Source: a virus
Direction: 5' to 3' (one strand)
Virus record (IMG/VR): IMGVR_UViG_3300031878_000003
Span: 1-29,610 of that record
Length of the DNA stretch: 29,610 nt
A program made the translations under genes and the position numbers. Position 1 is the first letter of the stretch, and the number at the start of each line of letters is the position of its first letter. Shown piece after piece: positions 1,578 to 23,908 of this stretch. Under the pieces are notes generated by a model. The model was not told the origin of the DNA, did not search any database, and saw only the letters and a program-made list of their open reading frames with translations.

Positions 1578-1621
1578 GTCACAACACCCGCTTCTCTTTT
1601 AATTAAAGGATGTGTTGTGAC
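1578..1621 (-). repeat. 44-bp inverted-repeat element, copy 1
   Basis: The ends are GTCACAACAC and GTGTTGTGAC, exactly 44 bp apart outside to outside. Read on the minus strand, the core contains TTTAATTAAAAGAGAAGC. The copy lies between the capsid gene and the next structural gene. Confidence 0.9.
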
Positions 1622-1673
1622 AGCGCCCGACTGTTGTGACGCCCGCGCCCGGCGCGGGCTGGTCATCAGCAGT

Positions 1674-1717
1674 GTCACAACACAGCATCTTCTTTTATCT
1701 ATATGCAGTGTTGTGAC
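1674..1717 (-). repeat. 44-bp inverted-repeat element, copy 2
   Basis: This copy is identical in sequence to copy 3, with the same 11-bp upstream flank (TCATCAGCAGT), so the two probably arose by recent duplication. The minus-strand core is ATATAGATAAAAGAAG. The terminal repeats extend inward to 15 bp with one mismatch. Confidence 0.95.
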
Positions 1718-1769
1718 AGTCCGCCTCACCCAAACGTAGTACTCCTTCACCGCCGGTGTCATCAGCAGT

Positions 1770-20586: not shown

Positions 20587-20995
20587 CTTTCACCAACCTT
20601 TCTGAGATGTCGTATTCTCGATGCTTCCGCAACACCCCGCGCCGCGTGCGCAGCCAGCGAACGCTTGAGGGCGTGCGCAGCACATCGAATACTGCCAGTC
20701 CGTCGGTGAAGAGAATAGCAGCATACGTCGGGATTGTCAAGCGACGCGCCGCGTCAACGACGGATTGCGGCAGAATGGTGGTGCGGTACGCATCAGAGCG
20801 CACCGACCGGCGCTTGACTTCCAGCGCCGCGATCGGTCGCTCGTCGTCAACGATCAGAAAATCCAGCGGCGCGTAGGCGTCCAGCCGCACCAGCGTCAGA
20901 TCGAGACGATGCGGGTAGAGCAGCAGCGCCGCCGTCTGCGCGATCACCCGCTCATACGGCAGCCCGAACGCGGCTTGTTCGTCAAACGAGCGCAC
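20549..20995 (-). CDS. PD-(D/E)XK nuclease-like protein
   Basis: This 148-residue protein contains LDFLIVDDERPIAALEVKRR, i.e. Asp then Glu-x-Lys at the spacing of PD-(D/E)XK nucleases, followed by YAAILFTDGLAVFDVLRT. This core resembles small 'type I restriction R N-terminal'-like or restriction-fold domains found alone in phages. It starts with GTG 20995 after AAGGGG, 9 bp beyond the primase-helicase stop, and overlaps the polymerase start. It may act in recombination or host DNA breakdown, which is inferred only. Confidence 0.65.
   Translation of the reverse strand: MRSFDEQAAFGLPYERVIAQTAALLLYPHRLDLTLVRLDAYAPLDFLIVDDERPIAALEVKRRSVRSDAYRTTILPQSVVDAARRLTIPTYAAILFTDGLAVFDVLRTPSSVRWLRTRRGVLRKHREYDISERLVKVEEVHQRQRRSA
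20712..20740 (-). promoter_or_regulatory. Internal promoter for DNA polymerase
   Basis: Minus strand: TTGACA (20740-20735), a 17-bp spacer, and TATTCT (20717-20712), lying inside the upstream gene and ~125 bp before the polymerase start. Confidence 0.7.
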
Positions 20996-21004
20996 CGCCG
21001 CCCC

Positions 21005-23908
21005 TTAGTGTACAGCAGTAGCAGCCGTCACAACGCCGGACTTTCTTTTATTTCTATACGGTGTTGTGACAGGCGTTCCGAGAAACTCAAACACCGGCGC
21101 GGTTCGCTCTTGATGTCGCTTGCGGATGCCCGTTGTACGCAGTCGCGCCCGTTCGACGTTGATCAACCGGTAGACGCGCACCCTCCTTCCGCCTTCAACC
21201 CGTTGTTGCTTCCCCTCGATTCCGACGCCGATCCTCTGGAACAGTGCGCTGATAAACGACATCGGCTTCCGGCGAAAGTCTTCGCGCACCTTGATCCCCA
21301 GCGCGGCGTGGATCAGCAGTCGGTTGCGTTCAACGAGATCGACAAATTCTTCGGTGATTGCAATCTCCGCGCCCTCTTCCAGCCGCAGTCGCAACGCGGC
21401 GAGGAGCGCGTTGAACCAGATTGCGAACAACGCGAACCGGTTGCGGTCGGCGCTGAAGCGCCGCGTCGCCTCCACCTCGTCCAGCGCCTTCGCAACCTCT
21501 GCGTCCTCGACCGATGCGAACCGCTGCGCCGCGCCGTATGCGCCGCGCTCGTCGTCGAGCACTAATTCAGCATCAACGTCGATGCCGTAGCGCTCTTCCA
21601 GTTCGACCTTCCGCTCTGCGTCGCGCTTTTGCTCTTCCGTTTTCGCATCATCCGGCGTCGGCGCGTTGGCGATCCGTTCAGCGCGGGCGCGCTCTTGCGC
21701 TTCGCGCTGTTCGCGCAGCGACTTCGCCAGTTCGCGGCGGCGGTCGGTCGGTAGATTCGGTTTGTCGCGGTCGTCCCAGACCTCAACGCCTTCAGCCGCG
21801 TATGCGCCGGTAAAGTTCTCAAAAAAGTTGTTCTTCTGCGCCGCAGTTTTGGCTTTGACAACGCAGTACAGATCGAGATAGACGCGATCCCACTCCGTCG
21901 CCGGTTCCGGCGCGCCGTTCGCGCGCGAAATGCGGAAGTCATCTTCCAGTTCGCGCAGTTTCGCCAGATCGCGGTACGCCTCCGGCGATGTCGGTTCGTT
22001 CATTCGTTTCGTTTCGACGTAGACGTTGATTTCACGCTCAAGCGGGTTGCGAATACGACCCAACTGCTGGCGGAAGTCGTCAACGTCGCCGACGCCGACG
22101 CCGTTTCTGGCGATTCCGAATAAAGCAAATCCCTCTACGTCGATTGACACGCCCGTTCCAACCGACGGGGAGTAGATGAACACATCAACGTTTCTCAGAA
22201 TATCGTTGATGCGCTCAAGCGTCTCGTTGTTGTTCTCGCTTGTTTCAGACGTAATCTTCAGTATTCGCGCGTCCGGCAGAAACTGGCGGTAGAACAATTC
22301 CGCGCGGTCGGCGTCGGCGCGTGTGTTGCACGCAAGCGCGATTTTCCACGCATTGGTTTCGTACCACTCCAGCGCCTTCTGAAGTACGTCTTCCGGCGTT
22401 GGCAGTAGTACGAGATGGTCGATTGCGCGATGCGCGTACTCGTTTTCGACGTAGGCTATCGGCTGGTCGGGAAACGCAGACTGAATGAACGTCAGCGTCG
22501 CTTCGCCAACATCGGCGTCGGCGAGAATGATCAGCCGCGCCTTGCGCAGGTGCTCCATCAGCGCGCCGACCGCAGAGACTTTGCGGCTTTTCAGATTGCG
22601 GTCGTTGACAATCGCTTTCAACACTTGCTCGATCTCATCAACGATCACGAGATCATACGGCGCGTCTGTCTCGATTTTGTCGAGACTGTGGATGGTGGTA
22701 GCAACGCGCGGCGCGTTCGTAATCCAGCGCCCGTCCTCGTAATACGGCGTGAGGTTCAGCCGTGCCGCGCTCTGGCGCACCAGCGAGACGCGGTGCCCCA
22801 CCGACAGCACGCGCGGGTAGCACTTCGCGGCTTCTGCCAGCCACTGCGTTTTACCGGTGCCCTTCGCAGACCGGATCACAACGATGTTCGGGTATTGGTC
22901 ATCTGGGTCAATCTCGATGTCGAGGTAGCGCTGATTGATGCGCATCGCGTCGGGCAGTTCCGGCGATACGACGTACCCGCCGCGCAAGCCGGGGATCGTC
23001 CCTTCAAACCCGTACTGTCGGGCGAGGTTGACCAAGACGCCGATGCCGCTCTCGACGTGATCGGGCTTCCGGTGCTTTTCCCAATCATACGTCCAACCGT
23101 CGAGCACCTCGGTCGCGTCCTCTTCCGGCAGCGCGGACTGGATCGCCCACACCGCCGCAAGCCACATATTGTACTCCAACCCGTCGCCCGGAATGTGCTT
23201 CAGCAGCGTCTCAATCGTTTCCCGCGTTGCCGCGCCGCCGACGCGCCTGGGCGTGAGGAGTGGACGGCGGGCGAACGCGGCGAAATCGGCGAGGTCGTAG
23301 TAGCGGTCGCTGTTGCGAAGGACAACGACGGGCTTCTTCTGTGGGCGCTGCTTCCAGTTGTACGAACCGACGACGCGGATCGACCGCGCCGCGTCGCTCG
23401 TGTTGTCGAGCGTCCAGCCGTACCGCGCGGCGGTGATGCGCAGTTGCGCCTCGACGCCGGACTGCACCGGCGCAACGTCGTCCGCTTTCTGCGGTTCTCG
23501 CAGAACCCACATCGGCATCAGACCGTTGCCGGTGTGGACGACGAGCGTCGGTTCCGGCAAGCCGCTCTCGGTGAGGAGTTTCAGCGCGTCGTCTTTCGAC
23601 GCGGGGAGCGTATCCTTCGCGTGCGCGTCGGAACGGATGTCGATGTCGGCGGTGATGACGCGCTGGTAGTAGGCGATTTCGGCGGTTCCCGATGAGCCGC
23701 GATCCGGGCGAACGTATTGTGAAGCGCGCTTGATGTAGATGTCGTATGCGAGGTGCTTCTGAATGTGCGCGACGATCTCGGCGCGCTGCGAGAGGTTGAA
23801 CGTCTTGCAGTCAAAGCGACCGTCCGCGCGCTTGACGCTGACGGTCGTATAGGCGGCGGTATCGTCGCCGTAGAGCAAGTCGAGGTAATCCGCGAATGTG
23901 ATAGACAT
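21005..23908 (-). CDS. Primase (AEP) fused to origin-binding-type helicase
   Basis: This 967-residue replication protein has an archaeo-eukaryotic primase-type N-terminal part: ITADIDIR (Asp 88 and 90), VVHTGNGL (His 125) and SDAARSIRVVGSYNWK (172-186). A SF2 helicase follows, with SAKGTGKT (347-354), LVIVDEIEQVL (420-430, the DEIE form of herpesvirus-like origin-binding proteins) and IYSPSVGTGVSIDVEG, then DFRQQLGRIRNP. The C-terminus has a long charged coiled-coil-like region and ends with a 44-bp element, translated VTTPYRNKRKSGVVT. It probably opens the origin and makes primers. It heads the early operon under a consensus promoter. Confidence 0.85.
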   Translation of the reverse strand: MSITFADYLDLLYGDDTAAYTTVSVKRADGRFDCKTFNLSQRAEIVAHIQKHLAYDIYIKRASQYVRPDRGSSGTAEIAYYQRVITADIDIRSDAHAKDTLPASKDDALKLLTESGLPEPTLVVHTGNGLMPMWVLREPQKADDVAPVQSGVEAQLRITAARYGWTLDNTSDAARSIRVVGSYNWKQRPQKKPVVVLRNSDRYYDLADFAAFARRPLLTPRRVGGAATRETIETLLKHIPGDGLEYNMWLAAVWAIQSALPEEDATEVLDGWTYDWEKHRKPDHVESGIGVLVNLARQYGFEGTIPGLRGGYVVSPELPDAMRINQRYLDIEIDPDDQYPNIVVIRSAKGTGKTQWLAEAAKCYPRVLSVGHRVSLVRQSAARLNLTPYYEDGRWITNAPRVATTIHSLDKIETDAPYDLVIVDEIEQVLKAIVNDRNLKSRKVSAVGALMEHLRKARLIILADADVGEATLTFIQSAFPDQPIAYVENEYAHRAIDHLVLLPTPEDVLQKALEWYETNAWKIALACNTRADADRAELFYRQFLPDARILKITSETSENNNETLERINDILRNVDVFIYSPSVGTGVSIDVEGFALFGIARNGVGVGDVDDFRQQLGRIRNPLEREINVYVETKRMNEPTSPEAYRDLAKLRELEDDFRISRANGAPEPATEWDRVYLDLYCVVKAKTAAQKNNFFENFTGAYAAEGVEVWDDRDKPNLPTDRRRELAKSLREQREAQERARAERIANAPTPDDAKTEEQKRDAERKVELEERYGIDVDAELVLDDERGAYGAAQRFASVEDAEVAKALDEVEATRRFSADRNRFALFAIWFNALLAALRLRLEEGAEIAITEEFVDLVERNRLLIHAALGIKVREDFRRKPMSFISALFQRIGVGIEGKQQRVEGGRRVRVYRLINVERARLRTTGIRKRHQERTAPVFEFLGTPVTTPYRNKRKSGVVTAATAVH
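21027..21070 (-). repeat. 44-bp inverted-repeat element, copy 11 (coding)
   Basis: It lies at the very C-terminus of the primase-helicase, 22 bp from the stop codon. Ends GTCACAACAC and GCGTTGTGAC on the minus strand, with core TATAGAAATAAAAGAAAG. Confidence 0.95.

Follow-up and report, generated by a model that had tools for sequence, protein, structure and literature searches.

The window analysed here is the whole 29,610-nucleotide stretch of the IMG/VR record IMGVR_UViG_3300031878_000003, a 29.6-kb tailed-phage record with nearly all genes on one strand, which encodes major capsid, portal, terminase and tape measure proteins, a family-A DNA polymerase, a helicase/primase, an exonuclease and an FtsK-like protein. 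We considered a dispersed inverted-repeat element in this window, for which a preliminary description, made from the letters alone, had given 11 copies of 44 bp, nine in one orientation and two reversed. Starts, length and orientations were all reproduced exactly: each copy is 44 bp long, with the TATAAATAAAAGA core on the minus strand in nine copies and on the plus strand in two (7451 and 9215), whereas dinucleotide shuffles of the window gave 0.03 sites on average (maximum 1). The copies have the ends GTCACAAC...GTTGTGAC, with a single right-arm change in the copy at 7451. The word GTCACAAC occurs 11 times in the window, each time as the left arm of an element, and the core motif is confined, within the window, to the elements. 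The copies, given with one flanking base on each side (44-bp coordinates in brackets), and the genes most relevant to them are the following, four of the 11 copies being inside genes and in frame.

1577..1622 (1578-1621), minus strand: copy 1, with its pyrimidine and purine flanks; capsid array, between the major capsid gene and gene 1085-1489
1673..1718 (1674-1717), minus strand: copy 2; capsid array
1769..1814 (1770-1813), minus strand: copy 3; capsid array, adjoining the capsid stop codon
7450..7495 (7451-7494), plus strand: copy 4, reversed; between the terminator of gene 7595-7885 and gene 7112-7342
7990..8035 (7991-8034), minus strand: copy 5; between terminator 8074-8053 (minus strand) and promoter 7951-7923 (minus strand)
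9214..9259 (9215-9258), plus strand: copy 6, reversed; between the convergent intrinsic terminators 9154-9176 (plus strand) and 9301-9276 (minus strand)
12460..12505 (12461-12504), minus strand: copy 7; between the PAPS-reductase-like gene and gene 11612-12442, directly 5′ of the ribosome-binding site of the latter
14112..14157 (14113-14156), minus strand: copy 8; in frame, C-terminal linker of the FtsK-like protein, translated as VTTPRINKREADVVT
14994..15039 (14995-15038), minus strand: copy 9; in frame, N-terminal linker of the FtsK-like protein, translated as VTTPHINKREASVVT
15129..15174 (15130-15173), minus strand: copy 10; in frame, N-terminal linker of the FtsK-like protein, translated as VTTPSINKREDDVVT
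21026..21071 (21027-21070), minus strand: copy 11; in frame, C-terminus of the helicase/primase-like protein, translated as VTTPYRNKRKSGVVT
1824..3008, minus strand: major capsid gene; the array of copies starts after its stop codon
13533..15389, minus strand: FtsK/SpoIIIE-like gene; three copies in low-complexity linkers around the ATPase domain
16234..16686, minus strand: conserved helical protein, candidate binder with weak helix-turn-helix similarity
21005..23908, minus strand: replicative helicase/primase-like gene; one copy at the C-terminus

Scanning IMG/VR for the pattern gave 100 stretches, and 284 copies were collected over about 65 related viral contigs, with about 8-11 copies per genome. 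To be picked up by the scan, a stretch had to hold one copy or more whose arms were exact over 8 bases, so that the arm statistics are biased upwards at this seed copy. The bias does not extend to the other copies of these contigs, to the capsid loci and the helicase loci, which were chosen by protein, or to the bases at the outer ends, which lay outside the pattern. The contigs are metagenomic and many are related, hence the counts given below are not independent. One relative of 32.4 kb looks complete, because its end repeats 118 bases of its start.

In all the copies (284 of 284) the base preceding the 44 bp is a pyrimidine and the base following it is a purine, so the conserved unit is 46 bp, Y-GTCACAACAC-N4-TATARATAAAAGA-N7-GTGTTGTGAC-R; the 44 bp of the preliminary description was right as far as it went, but missed these two ends, and some copies are moreover translated. 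Precisely, the element consists of two inverted 11-bp half-sites (5′-GTGTTGTGACR-3′) flanking an A-rich asymmetric core, TATARATAAAAGA, with positions 1-10 and 35-44 of the 44 bp nearly invariant, positions 15-27 occupied by the core, and positions 11-14 and 28-34 variable. The arms carry about 2 bits per position over 268 copies and are spaced by 24 bp, the exceptions differing by a single base only. Constancy of length, also claimed beforehand, holds for the 11 copies of the window but is relaxed in the relatives, where about 5% differ by 1 bp (in the first set, of 284 copies, the length was 44 bp in 268, 43 bp in 8 and 45 bp in 7). Isolated half-sites are rare and mostly adjoin elements, therefore we considered the pair of arms as the unit. 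Extra GTTGTGAC half-sites are found 10-25 bp from elements (window 15046-15092 and 1633), and may be what is left of lost copies.

Among 186 unique non-coding copies, the four combinations of end bases (TA 90, TG 66, CA 17, CG 13) occur as independence predicts, so that these ends appear to be read as sequence and not as a base pair. Compensatory double changes were not found in the 8+8-bp arms: two changes occur together in three copies, and in none of these do they compensate each other. These results, together with the conservation of arms and core, support the earlier proposal that selection acts on ends, core and total length and not on one hairpin. The inner arm bases do vary, as had been described, but not quite freely, since those of the capsid array pair above chance (148 vs 109 pairs); this is weak evidence for a helpful hairpin, the control leaving relatedness in. 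In the coding copies inner pairing is not above chance.

Related phages, in which the preliminary description had suggested searching for the pattern, hold abundant copies, and the positions of the element are common to them. For the capsid array we considered the loci chosen by the capsid protein with at least 450 bp downstream, and all 46 of these have 2-5 copies behind the major capsid gene. The C-terminal copy of the helicase is kept in all 15 homologues, down to 67% amino acid identity, at which the element is retained although the flanking residues differ. The FtsK-like protein of the relatives holds two or three copies in its N-terminal linker and one in its C-terminal linker, and one copy precedes the ribosome-binding site of gene 11612. 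The remaining copies are in a region of small genes with their own promoters and terminators, where they separate a terminator from the promoter that follows it or lie between convergent terminators; at terminator-flanked sites, 9215 among them, the arms are intact in some 20 phages. The copies are hence placed at the borders of genes, of cassettes and of protein domains. Their orientation is fixed in transcribed regions, where 195 of 196 copies are in the sense orientation: 139/140 in the capsid array, where the one exception (L064) lacks a core, and all copies in FtsK (34), in the helicase (11) and before gene 11612 (11). Elsewhere, i.e. between transcription units, it is mixed (52 vs 36).

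The in-frame copies (34 in FtsK and 11 in the helicase) are translated as VTTxxxNKRxxxVVT. We compared the homologues pairwise at four-fold degenerate sites: in the arm codons there were 0 differences in 815 comparisons for FtsK and 0 in 378 for the helicase (0/1,193 in total), whereas in the rest of the same genes 28% and 35% of such sites differ, respectively. Because the four-fold sites of the arms never differ, the constraint acts on the DNA and not on the peptide. Selection on the peptide VTTxxxNKRExxVVT was ruled out by this absence of synonymous change and by the identical DNA outside genes. Gene conversion within a genome was considered too as a cause of arm identity and rejected, because the cores of one genome (8.1 differences) are hardly closer than random pairs (8.6) and are less alike than cores of the same site across genomes (6.4).

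As regards distribution, the IMG/VR stretches matching the core are all in contigs sharing genes with the window, except for one in a distant phage of 52.7 kb (L077 / G002, GC 0.49). In 84,980 species genomes there were 32 single matches to the pattern, none with the core, which is about the chance level for 16 fixed bases, and 400 Chloroflexota genomes gave zero matches. The distant phage has a single intact element at about 47863-47906, between homologues (29-32% identity) of genes 8831 and 9644, a gene pair that also flanks an element in the window group; no other element families were found in that genome. A lone intact copy cannot be maintained by exchange with sister copies, so it must be kept by function or have been acquired by recent transfer, and the data do not separate the two. 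Gene 9644-10330 is a sliding clamp by fold (AlphaFold2 (AF2) predicted local distance difference test (pLDDT) 90; Foldseek E 1e-5 to DnaN/PCNA). This clamp is fast-evolving, down to 26-31% identity between related phages, and has no Pfam or PHROG match.

The host was assigned by means of spacers of clustered regularly interspaced short palindromic repeats (CRISPR), considering as a match at least 85% of the spacer length. In a Roseiflexus-type genome of 5,801,598 bases, which has a fused pufL-pufM frame and agrees with Roseiflexus sp. RS-1 in make-up and size, four arrays (L249, L250, L251 and L252 of G172) hold 344 unique spacers, 140 of which match this phage group, an unusually large share against one group; the window itself is matched by 47-48 of the 344. 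Since shuffled spacers gave no matches to the group, the spacers point strongly to Roseiflexus as the host, at that level, its name being based on genome size, gene make-up and spacers. The Roseiflexus-type genome is itself devoid of the element, its sole near match being a spacer joined to a repeat. A CRISPR-driven origin or a target bias was discarded, as 3 of the 140 phage-matching spacers overlap elements, which is what the footprint predicts. A search by name in the literature collection used found no paper on Roseiflexus or Chloroflexi phages. The assignment agrees with the Octopus Spring virome, in which most contigs grouped with Roseiflexus RS-1 (PMC5017753).

The sequence comparisons also indicate that the elements take part in recombination, with cores inverted and modules shuffled between copies. 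The core of the window copy 9215 differs from that of L074 4396 at 2 of 24 positions if inverted and at 19 if direct, with at least 35 of 40 flanking positions identical. L039 holds one element where L069 holds two, the outer flanks being retained, as expected from a crossover between copies. The modules between elements vary (FtsK-element-g11612, FtsK-element-g13250-element-g11612, g13250-element-PAPS). Of the breakpoints in identity between genomes, 11% are no more than 60 bp away from an element, vs 3.6% expected; the median distance from breakpoint to element is not lowered (1114 vs 1090). Relatives also differ in the presence of copies: the gap between g13250 and the PAPS-reductase-like gene is filled in L094 and L127 and empty in the window, L108 and L126, and L102 carries an extra copy between genes 7112 and 6912. 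At the PAPS/11612 gap, the filled and empty pair (L054 vs L094) is flanked by TAGGAGGT repeats, with no constant target duplication, and fits deletion between these repeats at least as well as insertion. The PAPS-reductase-like gene 12525-13253, with gene 13250-13513, varies in presence among relatives at element borders.

Ends that are read as sequence, fixed spacing, indifference to coding and transcription, and a phage-only distribution suggest a site in duplex DNA for a protein. We consider it probable, though by no means assured, that the element is a dispersed cis-acting double-stranded DNA site, at gene boundaries, for a putative sequence-specific protein; binding array is in fact the best fit among the three options of the preliminary description, the others being a mobile element and a recombinase site. 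We infer binding by a phage-encoded protein, with its effect at the borders of transcription units, for example as an operator, a road-block or an insulator. The likely mode would be that a single dimer or oligomer holds the two half-sites while the core is bent or wrapped. The position of copies at the seams of transcription units, with the orientation fixed where they are transcribed, suggests, by analogy with stoperators (PMC9283540), a polar effect on transcription. Such an effect on the passing RNA polymerase would account for the fixed orientation in transcribed sites; avoidance of a T-rich core in the mRNA would equally account for it.

Several points weigh against this interpretation. 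The binder is putative, and the sole helix-turn-helix candidate, gene 16234-16686, combines weak similarity (HTH_18 below the cut-off in 15 of 16 members, best E 0.0012) with a low-confidence model (AF2 pLDDT 58) and no useful PDB match, on account of which it was set aside. The only protein clearly common to the distant phage and the window group is the sliding clamp, which is not sequence-specific; its gene, 9644-10330, which adjoins the element in the distant phage, was rejected as binder on the basis of its model. Neither an integrase nor a classical repressor was recognised among the annotated genes, part of the small genes being without annotation, so a lysogeny-type master repressor is not indicated. 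Furthermore, the extra inner pairing in the capsid array would be superfluous for a duplex site, and a symmetric binding site alone leaves the fixed orientation in transcribed regions unexplained. A T4-late-type or sigma-70 promoter in the core (TATAAATA) was also considered and discarded: nearly half of the copies read TAGAAATA, and no -35 box was seen at a fixed upstream place.

An RNA hairpin in the phage mRNA, controlling processing, stability or translation of the surrounding genes, would make sense of the fixed sense orientation, of the copies lying between stop codons and ribosome-binding sites and of the inner pairing in the capsid array. However, the same arms are kept, whatever the orientation, by copies that lie upstream of promoters or have convergent terminators on their two sides, the arms show no compensatory change, C/A end pairs are as frequent as independence predicts, the coding copies lack inner pairing above chance and there were zero matches to Rfam families; we regard the hairpin as a quite improbable explanation. 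A miniature palindromic mobile element, of the repetitive extragenic palindrome (REP), Rickettsia palindromic element (RPE) or miniature inverted-repeat transposable element (MITE) type, could have spread anciently and survived where harmless, i.e. after stops and terminators and, in the sole open frame, in disordered linkers. The in-frame copies in linkers and tails resemble RPEs (PMC10969869), terminal inverted repeats are present as in MITEs and RPEs, the clustering of palindromes in a transcribed intergenic region is a trait of REPs and bacterial interspersed mosaic elements, and the differences in presence at the g13250/PAPS gap and in L102 would be natural for such an element. Absence from coding sequence, another trait of REPs and bacterial interspersed mosaic elements, does not hold here (34 FtsK and 11 helicase copies in frame). 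Selfish copies would decay, yet the arms are unchanged even at synonymous sites and the positions are fixed and ancient. Nor was any transposase family recognised among the annotated phage proteins; in the complete relative G004, tail genes aside, no large gene is left unassigned; the element, at 44-46 bp, is shorter than the described RPEs (about 150 bp); the L054/L094 pair is equally explained by deletion, with no constant target duplication; and no copy beyond chance was found in the cellular genomes surveyed. On this evidence the mobile element, the first option of the preliminary description, is weak and we hold it to be unlikely.

The recombinase-site option had indirect support in cores inverted in place and in modules exchanged at elements, to which the enrichment of breakpoints may be added; the 11-bp arms or the whole element would then be the place of crossovers by which the core is inverted and cassettes are exchanged or deleted. 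No recombinase gene was found, the annotated proteins including none recognisable as a site-specific recombinase and many of the small genes being without assignment; and short homologies with the phage exonuclease suffice without a dedicated site. Exchange is moreover slow, because cores of the same site are closer across genomes than cores within one genome. To our knowledge, 24 bp between half-sites does not fit the cores of tyrosine recombinases. A dedicated recombination site is thus, in our estimate, very unlikely.

Returning to the protein-binding site, a wider version of it can be imagined, which is speculative and which we consider rather unlikely: a genome-punctuation system, in which a phage protein would clamp the half-sites around the A-rich core at nearly every seam of operon, cassette and protein domain, would separate transcription units in a polar way and would make the seams preferred joints for module exchange. 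If this were true, the site would be a required genome-wide organiser and not an ordinary set of operators, given the silenced synonymous change in essential genes.

Among known systems, the closest kind appears to be, by analogy, the 17-bp dyad repeats of Cluster O mycobacteriophages, TGTTCGG-N3-CCGAACA, present in more than 30 dispersed copies per genome, mostly in short intergenic gaps and some in genes, for which the site of a dimeric regulator was proposed, the binder being unknown, and which undergo deletions by recombination between copies (PMC4351075). Both are dispersed in tailed phages, with invariant inverted arms, similar positions in relatives and deletions between copies. Unlike the 7-3-7 arrangement of Cluster O, however, our element is 46 bp long, has arms GTGTTGTGACR 24 bp apart and a conserved asymmetric A-rich core, occurs in about 8-11 copies, is fixed in orientation where transcribed, keeps its coding copies in one frame and has no sequence similarity to the Cluster O repeats. 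The stoperators of Cluster A mycobacteriophages, sites of the L5 repressor, are likewise dispersed in short intergenic spaces with an orientation that follows transcription, but they are 13-bp, asymmetric and monomer-bound (PMC9283540), whereas the element has two inverted half-sites and no repressor gene was recognised. The SPBRE of Bacillus phage SPbeta, a dispersed phage-specific repeat as well, was found by sequence first and later shown to be bound genome-wide by the phage-encoded repressor MrpR (PMC10516654); it is 15 bp long and located in promoter regions of a temperate phage, whereas the 46-bp element is also found within genes and behind terminators. RPEs and MITEs share with the element the presence of a palindromic repeat both between genes and in frame within unrelated genes, but RPEs are about 150 bp and reside in a bacterial chromosome (PMC10969869), and the element is 46 bp and phage-only, in ancient fixed positions and with no sign of a transposase among the annotated phage proteins. 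Finally, the start-associated sequences (SAS) and ESAS of Cluster K mycobacteriophages, of unknown function, are dispersed phage repeats with inverted parts, some adjoining start codons (PMC3203893); unlike SAS (13 bp, at translation starts) and ESAS (17-bp arms, variable spacers), the element is mostly off starts and has a fixed spacing.

Phage genomes repeatedly show dispersed repeats of unknown purpose, the binders of which are known only in a few temperate phages. For the present element the comparison has unusual strength, covering 284 copies, two divergent lineages of phages and a further, distant one, and a named host type, and the coding, transcribed and untranscribed copies, with the constraint on synonymous sites, are natural controls that make the question of the repeat binder directly testable. 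The element further provides a concrete connection of regulatory sites with the exchange of modules in phages, and its analysis describes a phage group targeted by a large share of the CRISPR spacers of a hot-spring phototroph.

Other features of the window were noted in addition. A second palindromic repeat, of constant length 32 bp (CCGTCCC-N18-GGGACGG), is present in four copies (13731-13762, 13905-13936, 13945-13976 and 14064-14095), all in the C-terminal linker of the FtsK-like protein, and similar GC-rich repeats occur in relatives. Gene 11612-12442 contains a long imperfect run of CTG/CAG-type repeats at 11699-12060, which codes for a QH-rich stretch and is also repetitive in one relative. 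Genes 7595-7885, 8831-9133 and 11255-11563 form a family of small acidic proteins of about 100 amino acids, possibly early or anti-defence genes, each with its own strong sigma-70 promoter and terminator; in L083 this family is represented by several cassettes of about 600 bp, with an element between each.

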